Source: a bacterium (GTDB lineage Bacteria; Patescibacteriota; Minisyncoccia; Phycocordibacterales; Phycocordibacteraceae). Taken from it: DNA of 41,270 nt. Below, piece after piece: positions 12,107 through 41,270 of this stretch. Location of the stretch: assembly GCA_023267755.1 (NCBI GenBank), contig JAHFMR010000006.1, positions 1 through 41,270 of the forward strand. Reading direction: 5' to 3'. The position numbers were made by a program, and so were the translations under genes. Numbering within the stretch: position 1 is the stretch's first letter; the number at the start of each line of letters is the position of its first letter. The notes beneath the pieces are model-generated. The model saw nothing but the letters and a program-made list of their open reading frames with translations. It made no database searches and was not told where the DNA came from.

Positions 12107-14536
12107 ATGAGTAACCGCTTACTTATCGTCGAGTCGCCCACCAAGGCGCGTACCATTGGCAATTATTTAGGCAAGGGCTATACGGTCCTCGCCTCGGTGG
12201 GCCACGTGCGCGACCTCCCCAAAACGAATAAAGACGCGGTAGATATTGAGGGCGGCTTTATCCCACGCTACGTAATCCCCGCCGAGAAGCGTGAGATAAT
12301 CGAGAAGATCCAGCATGCCGCCGCCAAGGCCGACGAGATCTATCTCGCGACCGACCCCGATCGCGAAGGCGAGGCTATCGCCTGGCACATTAAGGAGGTC
12401 GCCAAGCTGAAGAAGCCTAAGCGCGTCGCCTTCCACGAAATAACCAAGGCTGCTATCGAAGAGGCGCTTGCCCACCCGCGCACTATCGATGAACACTTGC
12501 GCGAGGCGCAAGAGGCACGGCGCGTACTCGATCGCATCGTCGGCTACGACCTCTCCGGTCTCATCTGGAAGAAGGTCCGCTACGGTCTCTCGGCCGGCCG
12601 CGTACAGAGCCCCGCGCTCCGCATCCTCGCTGAGCGCGAGCGCGAGATTAAAGCATTCATCCCGGTAACCTATTTCGTATTGAGCGCGCTCTTCCGCTCC
12701 AAGACCGGCGACCTCGCGACGACCTGTACCGAAGAGCCTAAGACGCGCGAGGAGGCCGATCGAATCGTAAACACGGGTCGAAGCGCCGCATGGAGCGTAG
12801 CCGATATAAACGAGCGCGCCGAAGAGCGTAACCCGCGACCGCCCTTCACCACCTCGACCCTCCAACAGACTGCGTCGACCCGGCTCGGCTTCGCCCCCTC
12901 ACGCACGATGCGTGCTGCGCAGAAGCTCTACGAGGCCGGTCATATCACCTATATGCGTACCGACTCGGTAAATCTTGGTGCAGAGGCTGTCGCGAAGATG
13001 GCGAGCGTTGTCGAGAAACAATTCGGCAAGGACTATGTGCAGGTGCGCGTCTATAAAACGACAAGTAAGAATGCGCAGGAAGCGCACGAAGCTGTCCGCC
13101 CCACCGACCCTTCTCACGAGCGCGCGGGCGCGACATCCGACGAGGTGGAGCTCTACGCGCTTATTCGCACTCGTGCGCTCGCCTCGCAGATGGCCGCTGC
13201 CAAGGTGATGCGCACGTCGGTGAGTGCGAAGGCCGACAAGGCAGATATTCCGTTCTTCACCGCGAACGGTTCGCGCACTCTCTTTCCTGGCTGGCTTGCG
13301 CTCGACACCGCTGCACGCGGTGAGGATGTCGAGCTCCCAAAGCTCGTTGTCGGCGACTCCCTCTCGCTCATCTCACTCGCAGCAGAGGAGAAGCAGACCG
13401 AGCCGCCAAATCGCTACACCGAAGCAGGGCTTATCAAGGAGCTGGAGAAACGTGGTATCGGCCGCCCTTCGACCTACGCGTCTATTATGAAGACGATTCA
13501 GGATCGCGGCTATGTAGAAAAGCTCGGCCGCGCACTGAAGCCCACTGCCACCGGTATGGTCGTCTCGGGCTGGCTCGAGGAACACTTCCCGCAGTACGTG
13601 AGCGACACCTTCACCGCCGAGATGGAGAACGAGCTCGATGAGATAGCACGCGGCGAGCGTGGCTACACACAAACACTGCAGGAATTTTATGGCCCCTTTG
13701 AGAAGGCGGTGCGTGCTAAGGATAAATTGCCTAAGGCCACATCGCTCGGCGATGTGCCAAGCGAATTCCCCTGCCCGCTGTGCGGCAGCCCGATGGAGTT
13801 TAAGCTCGGTCGTGGCGGTGTCTTTATGAGCTGTAAGAAGTATCCCGAATGCCTGGGCGCCCGCACCGAAGAAGGACTCGAGCTTAAGGGTGATGAGCCG
13901 ATCGGTGTGCACCCAGAAACTGGCGCACCTATTTATATAAAGACCGGAAGATTCGGCCCGTATGTTGAAATGGCTCTCCCAGAACCCGAATCAAGGTTCG
14001 ACCTTAAATCCGAATCCTCAAGGTCGAACCTTGATTCGGATGAAAAAGAATCGAAGAAGAAAACGCCGGCCAAACGTGGTAAGGGTCGCCCCAAAACGGC
14101 CGCCAAGCGCGCGAGCATCCCTGCCGGCACCGATCTTGCGGGTGTTACACTCGCCGATGCAGTGCGCTATCTCTCGCTCCCGCGCGAGCTGGGGATGCAC
14201 CCGAGTACCGGCAAACCCGTCTTCGCCTCAACCGGACGATTCGGTCCGTATGTCGGCAGCGACGGTGAGTTCCGCTCGCTCAAGGCCGCGGTCGGCGAAC
14301 CCTACACTATCACCCTCGACCAAGCACTCACGCTCCTCGCTGAGCCGAAGAAGCCGCCGAAGGGTGTTGAGATTGTACGAGAGATTGGCAAGCACCCGAA
14401 GACCGGCAAGGTCATCTCACTCTACAAGTCGAAGCAGGGTTACTTCCTCAAGAAAGGTCTCCGTCGTATTTATCTCCCTGATTCCGTCGCTCCCGACGCG
14501 CTCACTCCCCCAGAAGCAGCTGAATATTTGAAATAA
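12107..14536 (+). CDS. topA: DNA topoisomerase I
   Basis: LLIVESPTKARTIGNYLGKGYTVLASVGHVRDLP; DREGEAIAWHIKE; ITYMRTDSVNLG; CPLCGSPMEFKLGRGGVFMSCKKYPEC; C-terminal repeat modules. Confidence 0.98.
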   Translation: MSNRLLIVESPTKARTIGNYLGKGYTVLASVGHVRDLPKTNKDAVDIEGGFIPRYVIPAEKREIIEKIQHAAAKADEIYLATDPDREGEAIAWHIKEVAKLKKPKRVAFHEITKAAIEEALAHPRTIDEHLREAQEARRVLDRIVGYDLSGLIWKKVRYGLSAGRVQSPALRILAEREREIKAFIPVTYFVLSALFRSKTGDLATTCTEEPKTREEADRIVNTGRSAAWSVADINERAEERNPRPPFTTSTLQQTASTRLGFAPSRTMRAAQKLYEAGHITYMRTDSVNLGAEAVAKMASVVEKQFGKDYVQVRVYKTTSKNAQEAHEAVRPTDPSHERAGATSDEVELYALIRTRALASQMAAAKVMRTSVSAKADKADIPFFTANGSRTLFPGWLALDTAARGEDVELPKLVVGDSLSLISLAAEEKQTEPPNRYTEAGLIKELEKRGIGRPSTYASIMKTIQDRGYVEKLGRALKPTATGMVVSGWLEEHFPQYVSDTFTAEMENELDEIARGERGYTQTLQEFYGPFEKAVRAKDKLPKATSLGDVPSEFPCPLCGSPMEFKLGRGGVFMSCKKYPECLGARTEEGLELKGDEPIGVHPETGAPIYIKTGRFGPYVEMALPEPESRFDLKSESSRSNLDSDEKESKKKTPAKRGKGRPKTAAKRASIPAGTDLAGVTLADAVRYLSLPRELGMHPSTGKPVFASTGRFGPYVGSDGEFRSLKAAVGEPYTITLDQALTLLAEPKKPPKGVEIVREIGKHPKTGKVISLYKSKQGYFLKKGLRRIYLPDSVAPDALTPPEAAEYLK
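13986..14039. repeat. In-frame palindromic element in topA: 20-bp perfect arms, 14-nt spacer
   Basis: ccgaatcaaggttcgacctt - aaatccgaatcctc - aaggtcgaaccttgattcgg; each arm is itself a mini-hairpin (AAGGT-NNN-ACCTT). Confidence 0.92.
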
Positions 14537-18017: not shown

Positions 18018-18890
18018 ATGTTGAAAATCTTGTGCATCGCAGGGCCGACCGCCTCAGGCAAGTCAAGTCGAGCTGTCGAAGAAGCGCTCGCGCGTGATGG
18101 TGAGGTTATTTCTATCGACTCACGTCAGGTCTATCGCGGGCTCGATATCGGGACCGAGAAGATATCGGCTACCGAAATGCGCGGCGTGCCGCACCATCTA
18201 ATAGATATCCGCAATCCCGAGGAGAATTATTCTGCCGGCGACTTTGTCACCGATGCAATACGCTTGATTGAAGAAATCACAGCGCGTGGGAACCTGCCGA
18301 TACTTGTCGGCGGGACGCACTTCTACTTCGATGCGCTTCTTAACGGCCTCCCAATCGGTGTCGACGCCAATCCGCAGCTGCGTGAAGAGCTCGAGCAGCT
18401 CTCGACCGAGGAGCTGTATGCGCGCGTCCGCCAAGCGGACGCGCGCCGTGCCGCAGAGCTGGACCCGCAGAACCGTCGCCGACTTATCCGCGCGCTCGAG
18501 ATTATCGCCTCCCTTGGGCACGTTCCACTCCGACACGAGGGGCACCCTCGTGCTGCACGAGGGTGCCCCTCGTGGGAGGTCGAGTGGATAGTGATTGACC
18601 CGTCGCGTGAAGAGCTGCGAGAGAGAATTAACACACGTCTCGCCACCGCCTTTAAGCGTGACCTCATCGAGGAGGTGCGCCAGGTGCGTACCCGTGTCGG
18701 CGATACGCGCCTTAACGAGCTTGGGCTCGAATATAGAATAGTCGGCGAGTACGTGTCCTCCTCCGCTGAAGCTACGGAGGACACGGCGCGTATCCAAGAA
18801 AAATTATTGCCGGTTCTATCGGCGAAGCTTTGGCAGTATGCCCGCCGCCAGAAAGCCTGGCTCCGCAAGCTTGGCCACTCGGCGTCCTAA
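18018..18890 (+). CDS. miaA: tRNA dimethylallyltransferase
   Basis: IAGPTASGKSSRAVEEAL, VISIDSRQVYRGLDIGTEK, GVPHHLIDIRNPEENYSAGDF, LPILVGGTHFYFDALLNGLP. Confidence 0.96.
   Translation: MLKILCIAGPTASGKSSRAVEEALARDGEVISIDSRQVYRGLDIGTEKISATEMRGVPHHLIDIRNPEENYSAGDFVTDAIRLIEEITARGNLPILVGGTHFYFDALLNGLPIGVDANPQLREELEQLSTEELYARVRQADARRAAELDPQNRRRLIRALEIIASLGHVPLRHEGHPRAARGCPSWEVEWIVIDPSREELRERINTRLATAFKRDLIEEVRQVRTRVGDTRLNELGLEYRIVGEYVSSSAEATEDTARIQEKLLPVLSAKLWQYARRQKAWLRKLGHSAS
18420..18446. repeat. In-frame palindrome 1 in miaA, 12-bp perfect arms
   Basis: gcgcgcgtccgc-caa-gcggacgcgcgc. Confidence 0.85.
18534..18574. repeat. In-frame palindromic element 2 in miaA, 20-bp perfect arms, 1-nt centre
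   Basis: cacgaggggcaccctcgtgc-t-gcacgagggtgcccctcgtg; each arm holds a mini-hairpin CACGAGG-GGCAC-CCTCGTG. Confidence 0.95.
18752..18785. repeat. In-frame palindrome 3 in miaA, 10-bp perfect outer arms
   Basis: cgtgtcctcc-tccgctgaagctac-ggaggacacg, encoding SSSAEATEDT. Confidence 0.85.
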
Positions 18891-20042: not shown

Positions 20043-20966
20043 ATGGAACCGCAGAAAAGTATTTTGTTCGTGTGCACGGGAAATATCTTCCGCAGCCTTG
20101 CCGCAGAACAGAGTTTCAAGCAATACCTCGCCGCCAACGCTATCGAGGGGTGGCGCGTCGCCTCTGCGGGTATCGTCGCTGCGCCACAGCCGACCGACCC
20201 AAAGACGCTTGAGACACTTCAGGAGCTCGGTATGGATGGCACCCGTCACGAGCAGCAACGTCTCACTCGCGAAATGCTTACCGAATACGACGTCATCGTC
20301 GGTATGGCAGAGAATCATATCGCGTATATGAAGTCCGAATTCGGCTACAACTACGCCTTTCTCTTCAACGAGCTCGCGACAGGAGAGAAGACGTCTATCT
20401 GGGATATTGAAGATGAGGTGTCGGACTACGCTCATAATCGGCAGGGTGTAGAGGAAAAGATTGCGCACACCGTGAGAAGTATCCACGACAAGATCCCCGC
20501 CTTGTTCGAATCGGCCTCTGAACGCTTCTACCTATTTAAGGATTTCATTGACGGAAAAGTTGCTCACCGGCACAACGGGTATCCTTTTATCACGCTAGAC
20601 GAGACGCCTCATTCTATCGCGTTTATGTCTATCGATATTCCGTTCAACGAAGATGGGCACGTCCTCGTAATCCCGAAGAAACGCTACTTCGACCTCTCCG
20701 AGATCCCCGATGAGATCCTGAGCAACATTCTCGCTTCCATCAAGAAGATAGGGCGCGCTCTAAACGTCGATCATGGCGGCTATAATATTCTCCTCAACAA
20801 CGGATTCGATGCCGGGCAATATATTATGCATACGCACTTTCATATCATCCCGAGACGGAGCGATGACGGTATAACAGTAGAAGGATGGGCGCATCCGAAA
20901 ATCAGTCTGGAGGATTTTGTCAGACTCAACGAGAAGCTTAAGCGACAGATAGAAGCAGTCTCTTAA
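20043..20966 (+). CDS. Fusion: low-molecular-weight protein tyrosine phosphatase-like domain + HIT-family hydrolase
   Basis: N-term ILFVCTGNIFRSLAAEQSF (CX5R P-loop); C-term HIT fold ending GQYIMHTHFHIIPR (HxHxH). Confidence 0.88.
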   Translation: MEPQKSILFVCTGNIFRSLAAEQSFKQYLAANAIEGWRVASAGIVAAPQPTDPKTLETLQELGMDGTRHEQQRLTREMLTEYDVIVGMAENHIAYMKSEFGYNYAFLFNELATGEKTSIWDIEDEVSDYAHNRQGVEEKIAHTVRSIHDKIPALFESASERFYLFKDFIDGKVAHRHNGYPFITLDETPHSIAFMSIDIPFNEDGHVLVIPKKRYFDLSEIPDEILSNILASIKKIGRALNVDHGGYNILLNNGFDAGQYIMHTHFHIIPRRSDDGITVEGWAHPKISLEDFVRLNEKLKRQIEAVS

Positions 20967-20971
20967 CATAA

Positions 20972-21004
20972 AAGTAAAACCGCCCCGAAGGGGCGGTTTT
21001 ACTT
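20972..21004. terminator. Bidirectional intrinsic terminator
   Basis: aagtaaaaccgcccc-gaa-ggggcggttttactt between the convergent HIT-fusion gene and rpmG; A/T tracts on both sides. Confidence 0.93.
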
Positions 21005-24667: not shown

Positions 24668-25828
24668 CTACCCTCTCGCGCCGCTGTCAACAAAAGCGAC
24701 TGCCCGCACGAGCTCACCTGCAAAACGCGTCAAATCACCCGCCCGTGTGGACGGTCCCCAGGAGACGCGCAACGTCGTGTGCGCTCTCTCCTTGTCGCCG
24801 GTGAGAATGAAAACTGCGTGCGAGCCCTCCTCTGAATCAGTCTCGCACGCGCTTCGCGAGGAGACGGCAATTCCCGCCTCATCGAGGAGTGCCACGAGAT
24901 AATCAGTGTCGCGTCCTGGGAGCGAGAGACTAAGAATATTCGGCGTTTGTCTGTGACCCTTATTTATATATACGTCTGGGATATCCCGCGTGACGCGCTC
25001 TACGAGCCTCTCTCGCTCTTGTTTAGCAGTCGTATAAAACACTTCGTGGCTTCGCGCAGCGGCGCTAAGCGCCTCCGCAAATGCTCTTGCGAGCTCGGGC
25101 GTCTCGCTCCCAGGACGCAATCCTCGTTCTTGACCGCCGCCACGATAGAGTGGTGCAAGCGGAATAGTGCGATGTGCGATGAGCACGCCAATGCCGCGAA
25201 GTGCGCCGACCTTCGCGCCGTCGAACGTGAGCAGATCGGCGCCAAAGTGTGCACGAGTTATCTTCTCCGTAAGCGGCGCCTGACTCGCATCCACGTGCAG
25301 CAGCGCAGCGGGGAAAGTGATTTCTTCGCGAGTGGCTGCCCTGCCTCGAGCGAGCGAGAAATTACTTTCCCCGCTGCGCGTGCCCCGAAGTGTTGCAGCC
25401 ACCTCGCGCGTATTCCAGATGACTCCCGTCTCACCGCATACCGCATCCATCGAGATGAGAACTGTCTCGGGTCGGAGCAGCCTTGCGAGCGCTTCTGTAT
25501 CTACCGCTCCATCCTTAATCGGGAGCGCTTCCACTACCGCTCCACGTTCTTCGGCCATCTTCATATTCTCCACGATAGACGCGTGTGCACTCGGCAAGTA
25601 GAGCAGATGAGCTCCGGGCCGAGCGAGACCGAGGATAGCAAGCGCGTTGGCCTCAGTCGCCCCGCTCGTGAAGATGACATCATCGGCCTGTGCCTCAACC
25701 AGCCGCGCGATAGTCGTCCGTGCGTCTTCGAGTACCGCCTTCGCCTGACGGCCCTCCTCGTGCGGCGATGATGGGTTCCCGGCCACGCCAGCGGCTTGAT
25801 CAAGATTGAGTCTCTTCTGCCACCACAT
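24668..25828 (-). CDS. Cysteine desulfurase (NifS/IscS family)
   Basis: NPSSPHEEGRQAKAVLEDARTTIARLVEAQADDVIFTSGATEANALAI; LLHVDASQAPL; LTFDGAKVGALRGIGVLI; AVSSRSACETDSE. Confidence 0.94.
   Translation of the reverse strand: MWWQKRLNLDQAAGVAGNPSSPHEEGRQAKAVLEDARTTIARLVEAQADDVIFTSGATEANALAILGLARPGAHLLYLPSAHASIVENMKMAEERGAVVEALPIKDGAVDTEALARLLRPETVLISMDAVCGETGVIWNTREVAATLRGTRSGESNFSLARGRAATREEITFPAALLHVDASQAPLTEKITRAHFGADLLTFDGAKVGALRGIGVLIAHRTIPLAPLYRGGGQERGLRPGSETPELARAFAEALSAAARSHEVFYTTAKQERERLVERVTRDIPDVYINKGHRQTPNILSLSLPGRDTDYLVALLDEAGIAVSSRSACETDSEEGSHAVFILTGDKERAHTTLRVSWGPSTRAGDLTRFAGELVRAVAFVDSGARG
25303..25379. repeat. In-frame palindromic element in cysteine desulfurase, 22-bp arms with one mismatch, 33-nt spacer
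   Basis: gcgcagcggggaaagtgatttc ... gaaattactttccccgctgcgc; encodes SGESNFSLARGRAATREEITFPAA. Confidence 0.92.
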
Positions 25829-35133: not shown

Positions 35134-35152
35134 TACAAGGTTCAACCTTGTA
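35134..35152. repeat. RAYT-associated palindrome copy 1 (upstream)
   Basis: tacaaggtt-c-aaccttgta, 9-bp perfect arms. Confidence 0.9.
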
Positions 35153-35180: not shown

Positions 35181-35840
35181 ATGGCACGCACTTTTTCATT
35201 CGCTCCCGGTGAGTTTTATCACTTGTATAATCGCGGCACAGAAAAGCGGAATATATTCACTTCTAAAGCAGACCGCGACCGGTTCCTTACGCTTCTCTAC
35301 CTAGCAAACCAAGACATTCCCGCTGACTTAAAATTACAAGGTTCAACCTTGTTAGAGATAGTGAAACCAAAAGCGGGAGCTCCGCTTGTCGAGATCGTCT
35401 GTTATTGCCTCATGCCGAATCATTTCCACTTACTAGTACGCGAATTAGAAGACGGTGGGATTAGTAAATTTATGCAAAAAATTACGACTGGATACACGAT
35501 GTATTTCAATAAACGCTCCGACCGGAATGGCGCTCTCTTCCAAGGAAGATTTAAAGCGACTCACGTAGCTGATGATCGATACCTGCGCTACCTCATCTCA
35601 TACATTCATCTAAACCCTGTAAAACTTATCGAACCAAAGTGGAAAGAGACGGGTATTGCCAATCAAGTACACGCCGAGCGCTACCTCGAGACATATACTG
35701 CTTCAAGTTATCCCGATTATCTAGGTAAAAAACGCGCTGAAGGAATGATTCTTACTAAAGAAGCTCTGCCCGAATATTTCTCCTCTGGCTCCGACTTCAA
35801 AACCTTCGTCACAGAATGGCTTACCTATAAGTCCGATTAG
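35181..35840 (+). CDS. REP-associated tyrosine transposase (RAYT; Y1/IS200-like HUH transposase)
   Basis: FYHLYNRGTEKRNIF; HUH motif LMPNHFHLLV; catalytic Tyr region KITTGYTMYFNKR; FQGRFKATHV...YLRYLISYIHLNPVK. Confidence 0.93.
   Translation: MARTFSFAPGEFYHLYNRGTEKRNIFTSKADRDRFLTLLYLANQDIPADLKLQGSTLLEIVKPKAGAPLVEIVCYCLMPNHFHLLVRELEDGGISKFMQKITTGYTMYFNKRSDRNGALFQGRFKATHVADDRYLRYLISYIHLNPVKLIEPKWKETGIANQVHAERYLETYTASSYPDYLGKKRAEGMILTKEALPEYFSSGSDFKTFVTEWLTYKSD
35336..35352. repeat. RAYT-associated palindrome copy 2 (inside the transposase gene)
   Basis: acaaggtt-c-aaccttgt, 8-bp perfect arms, encoding LQGSTLL just upstream of the HUH motif. Confidence 0.9.
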
Positions 35841-35861
35841 TACAAGGTTCAACCTTGTACT
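35839..35861. repeat. RAYT-associated palindrome copy 3 (overlaps the transposase stop codon)
   Basis: agtacaaggtt-c-aaccttgtact, 11-bp perfect arms. Confidence 0.92.
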
Positions 35862-41241: not shown

Positions 41242-41270
41242 ACCTCGCGGCGCCGGAGGCGCCGCGAGGT
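41242..41270. repeat. Strong GC-rich hairpin at the window edge, 13-bp perfect arms
   Basis: acctcgcggcgcc-gga-ggcgccgcgaggt; may continue past the window, and may be an rpsA terminator or another palindromic element. Confidence 0.7.

Follow-up and report, generated by a model that had tools for sequence, protein, structure and literature searches.

A palindromic repeat family with a constant core and variable arms in a cysteine desulfurase gene of a Patescibacteria genome

Protein-coding palindromes have hitherto been known chiefly from Rickettsia and Wolbachia, and other intragenic REPs are scattered in bacteria. Rickettsia palindromic elements (RPE) are repeats of 100-150 bp that are defined by sequence similarity and sit within open reading frames without breaking them (PMC3767692). 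In orthologs, RPE-4, -6 and -7 can be found at almost identical positions; the authors put forward two explanations, hotspots of insertion or divergence after a single origin (PMC3767692). A CGTC tag has been reported for RPE-4 and RPE-6 of R. conorii, and REPs inside genes as well as REPs inserted within palindromes have been catalogued (PMC3733652).

The family described here, A1, is of a kind already known, and what sets it apart is a hotspot used by multiple palindrome families together with its build of a constant core and variable arms. Like RPE, it is a dispersed palindromic repeat with several copies, and like RPE and the Wolbachia protein-coding palindromes it lies in-frame in conserved genes that stay unbroken, with several groups found at one ortholog place. 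Unlike these, it occurs in a different phylum and in low copy number. A1 copies have only the core in common, with arms that are different in almost all of them, which, judged by the descriptions of RPE, sets the family apart; in contrast to RPE-4 and RPE-6 its ends are variable, with CGTC starting the aligned footprint in just two of ten copies. With REPs and REPINs it has in common that it is palindromic, presumed to be non-autonomous and in some cases intragenic, and that RAYTs are present in the same genomes. However, REPs and REPINs have a GTAG-type tag and a palindrome of 20-40 bp, whereas A1 is without a GTAG tag, has a long stem and a conserved core, is not located beside RAYT genes (23 loci) and has only one to three copies per genome. 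Being short, non-coding and dispersed with inverted ends, A1 also resembles MITEs, but its ends are not common to the copies (outer 14 nt 35% identical). In the open-licence literature we found no description of such elements in Patescibacteria, and A1 is, as far as searched, a real and previously undescribed family.

The window, that is the whole stretch of 41,270 nucleotides analysed here, is a single contig of a 583-kb genome (labelled G000), the close relatives of which carry the labels Candidatus Kaiserbacteria and other Patescibacteria. The host is a tiny uncultured bacterium, and the gene in which the element is located encodes an essential enzyme handling sulfur. Gene and element have the following parts (arm sequences in gene orientation):

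24668-25828, minus strand: cysteine desulfurase, IscS/NifS-type, 386 amino acids, open throughout (PF00266, E=1.5e-35; its best relatives among solved structures are cysteine desulfurases)
25301-25381, minus strand: A1-family palindromic element, footprint of covariance model R1 (47.7 bits, E=3.6e-8)
25357-25379, minus strand: 5' arm, GCGCAGCGGGGAAAGTAATTTCT, 23 nt
25326-25356, minus strand: loop, CGCTCGCTCGAGGCAGGGCAGCCACTCGCGA, containing the conserved core in a shortened form; this core matches that of the desulfurase gene of genome G022 at 27/28 positions
25303-25325, minus strand: 3' arm, AGAAATCACTTTCCCCGCTGCGC, 23 nt

The arms are complementary at 22 of 23 positions (96%, one mismatch) and are separated by 31 nt. 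The inverted repeat of 77 bp with one mismatch, on which the preliminary description was based, is real: it ranks top in the whole 41-kb window with a score of 20, compared to a maximum of 13 when the desulfurase gene was shuffled 150 times among synonymous codons. Hairpins scoring at least 13 occurred once in 210 kb of simulated sequence compared to 39 in the real sequence. The covariance-model footprint slightly exceeds the 77 bp and corresponds to residues ~150-176 of the desulfurase; the peptide encoded by the element is SGESNFSLARGRAATREEITFPAA and stands directly before LLHVDASQAPL, exactly as described earlier. The alignment of desulfurases supports the proposed insertion: close orthologs are without it, and the distance from WNTREV to HVDAS is 21-30 residues in insert-free orthologs compared to 45 in the window gene. 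No target-site duplication was found, the closest ortholog for comparison being just ~72% identical in DNA. The single mismatch, suggested earlier to mark an older or mutating copy, says little on age; the degenerate part is the core, in which the apical stem is shortened as in the G022 copy. An intrinsic terminator was ruled out for the window copy because it is located inside a gene, and ribosomal bypassing is unneeded since the frame is open in every coding copy seen.

As to the repeated nature of the segment, the outcome is divided: the whole 77 bp is unique in the genome according to BLAST, but the core belongs to a repeat family. The whole appears to be single-copy because the arms vary from copy to copy and dominate the BLAST result. 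The insert of another desulfurase gene (L017, genome G061) used as query led to dispersed copies that have about 37-45 nt of core in common and not the arms, and one dispersed A1 copy lies elsewhere in the window's own genome (G000:C16). The model R1 was built from ten A1 copies with the window copy left out, and it recovers the window element with the score given above. In all, 19 A1 copies were found in 11 genomes. Searching the genus with R1 gave 17 copies in 10 of 92 genomes, one to three in each; beyond the genus, one copy was found in another family of the order (397-genome sample of the order), and among the retrieved loci one more, weak copy turned up in the desulfurase gene of G022 (31.9 bits). 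The element measures about 80-94 bp, its conserved core about 30-40 nt.

At least 13 of the 19 copies are located in genes recognised with Pfam and NCBIfam, namely in those for desulfurase (six), DEAD-box helicase (four), infB, prmC and ileS (one each); four are intergenic and two are without assignment. The intragenic copies use several reading frames and both orientations, the opposite one being found in infB and prmC, and the genes stay unbroken. The nearly identical cores in the desulfurase genes of G000 and G022 are read in different frames and stand between different arms, showing that conservation is at the nucleic-acid level and not at that of the peptide. When six loci with A1 or A2 copies were searched against Rfam, only a tRNA reached the gathering score of its family, and the element itself had no match at that level. 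A frame in genome G213 (L206, 1-2403, minus strand) encodes an isoleucyl-tRNA synthetase (residues 15-517) fused to a histidine-phosphatase domain (517-689), and an A1-like palindrome lies in its synthetase part.

A second family, A2, has the same constant-core, variable-arm build, with the core GCGCTC-GGCCGCTAGGCC-A-TC-AC (L142-L159, L176-L205). With the model R2 about 140 copies were found in 49 of the 92 genus genomes; most are intergenic and some lie inside class-I tRNA synthetase and desulfurase genes. R2 found no copy in G000 and gave no match in the window, so that an assignment of the window copy to A2 was rejected in favour of A1. In G042 an A2 element is found about 150 bp from an IS200-like transposase; a link between the two was also rejected, since the element is apparently not part of the IS.

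The site in the desulfurase gene is an insertion hotspot shared by several unrelated palindrome families. Across orthologs the protein varies most in the segment from WNTREV to LHVDASQ, and in 24 of 84 desulfurase genes this zone contains a hairpin (score at least 12). Hairpins are ~19-fold denser here than in the rest of the gene (24 in 5.9 kb compared to 19 in 89.5 kb), and they come from at least five families:

A1: G000, G061, G006, G079, G031, G022
A2: G015, G088, G090, G087, G080 and others
RAYT-type palindromes: G009, G014, G023, G065
GC-rich hairpins with 3-nt loops: G050, G056, G040, G068, G091, G045, G053
CCATCCCGAGCG..CGAGGGAT type: G070, G021, G067

In the AlphaFold model the pLDDT falls below 50 only at residues 1-16, 153-171 and 235-237, the remaining fold being confident, and residues 153-171 sit between the helix 140-152 and the strand 176-180. 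Thus, the insert is predicted to be a floppy linker between helix and strand. In a desulfurase tree calculated with the zone left out, the labels A1, A2, RAYT-type and other look scattered, with weak support. We claim many families at this site and not many A1 insertions, because a single A1 clade in the desulfurase was not rejected by the AU test (p=0.60, four rows). Outside the desulfurase, three intergenic A1 copies (G000, G061 and G023) precede the same gene and share place and orientation. Most simply, they are one old insertion in which the arms have since diverged yet still pair.

The arms vary in sequence and keep their pairing. Identity between A1 copies is 0.81 in the core and 0.35 in the outer 14 nt of the arm. 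At these outer 14 positions 0.87 are paired within a copy, compared to 0.46 if the left arm is combined with the right arm of another copy. In an alignment that took no account of structure, covariation scored 0.498 compared to 0.12-0.18 for slid structures, and of the 26 outer-helix pairs 22 showed compensatory changes; a larger A1 alignment gives the same picture but was fitted to the model. Selection for RNA folding is expected to favour wobble pairs. The non-Watson-Crick pairs comprise 18 A-C and 9 G-T in A1 and 10 A-C and 4 G-T in A2, thus no excess of G-T, in small numbers and with A-C on one strand being G-T on the other. Since pairing persists despite sequence turnover and G-T pairs are not enriched, the complementarity of the arms looks DNA-made, that is, it may have been generated or renewed by DNA copying.

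The window also contains a transposase gene and further palindromes:

35181-35840, plus strand: Y1/RAYT-like transposase gene (PF01797, E=3.4e-10; NCBIfam REP_Tyr_transpos, E=1e-13, below cut-off)

It is one of three Y1 transposase genes in G000, and copies of one short palindrome border it on either side (35134-35152 and 35839-35861). Most of the 23 RAYT loci examined in the genus have short palindromes on one or both sides; these (L227-L246, L210, L211) have arms of 10-17 bp and usually a single central base, and they differ from RAYT to RAYT. The palindrome in miaA (18534-18574, 20-bp arms) shares the 17-mer ACGAGGGTGCCCCTCGT with palindromes that lie to either side of a RAYT gene of the same genome (contig C5; L210, 621-671 and 1338-1382). 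In other species (L010, L016) miaA has different palindromes at the same place. The element in topA (13986-14039) is an inverted pair with CAAGGTTCGACCTT as its basis, similar to the ACAAGGTTCAACCTTGT palindromes flanking the window RAYT gene, and perhaps matches these RAYT-flanking palindromes. The elements in topA and miaA thus resemble palindromes next to RAYT genes of the same genome, in agreement with the earlier view that the desulfurase element is of a different family. A perfect 15-bp hairpin with a 3-nt loop (20972-21004) just past the gene ending at 20966 is probably an ordinary terminator. At 41242-41270 a perfect 13-bp hairpin runs right up to the last base of the contig, as though the assembly had been interrupted at a palindrome.

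We consider it probable (about 0.75) that A1 is a family of small, non-coding, non-autonomous palindromic repeats of one Kaiserbacteria-like genus, spreading at the DNA level and inserting in-frame as harmless loops. Copies in coding regions would survive only if the reading frame remains uninterrupted and the extra 20-30 residues make a harmless surface loop, and harmful insertions would be removed by purifying loss. In the desulfurase the tolerant place would be the connection from helix to strand before the HVDASQ motif; A1, A2, RAYT-type and other palindromes would gather there because insertion is tolerated. The insert would be read through as a disordered loop, most likely doing nothing for the enzyme. 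One arm might have served as template for the other, through fold-back synthesis or a switch of template. A tentative extension, which we regard as rather unlikely, is that the mobile palindrome carries only the short core and that the arms are made anew at each site by fold-back copying of flanking sequence. If true, each copy would have unique and well-matched arms, survival in-frame would be a by-product, and ordinary repeat searches would miss the element.

The leading candidate for mobilising A1 is a Y1/RAYT transposase acting in trans. A closer relation, with A1 itself serving as REP to one of the RAYTs of these genomes, is unlikely: A1 flanks none of the 23 RAYT loci, it is far longer than the palindromes found there and has a large core, and in G022, a genome with several A1 copies that is only 83% complete, no Y1 gene was detected. 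Such a relation would fit the resemblance of other palindromes in the desulfurase zone (G009, G014, G023, G065) to RAYT-flanking ones, and the presence of Y1 transposases in 9 of 10 A1 genomes compared to 53 of 92 genus genomes overall, a co-occurrence that is weak and confounded by ancestry. It might also be that the hairpin is selected as a functional structured element, its RNA or single-stranded DNA form binding via the core, for instance with a role in the stability of mRNA or in the pausing of translation. The core is invariant at many positions and more conserved than expected of a neutral relic, its apical stem shows compensatory changes, its differing frame in the G000 and G022 desulfurases excludes conservation for the peptide, and the three intergenic copies keep one orthologous place and orientation in three genomes. 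However, the restriction of A1 to 10 of 92 genus genomes with one to three copies each, most orthologous genes being without it, the missing enrichment of wobble pairs and the negative Rfam search of the tested loci make such a function quite improbable.

Formation of each palindrome in place by template switching during replication, with no mobile element involved, is very improbable for A1. At the desulfurase site several species (G050, G056, G040, G068, G091, G045, G053, G081) have short, perfect hairpins with loops of 1-3 nt; these hairpins and the DNA-level signature in the arm complementarity are in line with such an origin, but it cannot account for a core that is common to unrelated genes and genomes; since the core is shared, local origin is refuted as the sole source of A1. 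Local template switching may lie behind the loopless GC-rich hairpins and may also renew the arms.

The constant-core, variable-arm build of A1 leads to a testable prediction on how such elements are formed and explains why a plain BLAST with the whole repeat reports a single copy. The presence of several unrelated palindrome families at one loop of an essential enzyme in these small-genome Patescibacteria offers a natural experiment that shows which places in a protein can accept random insertions.
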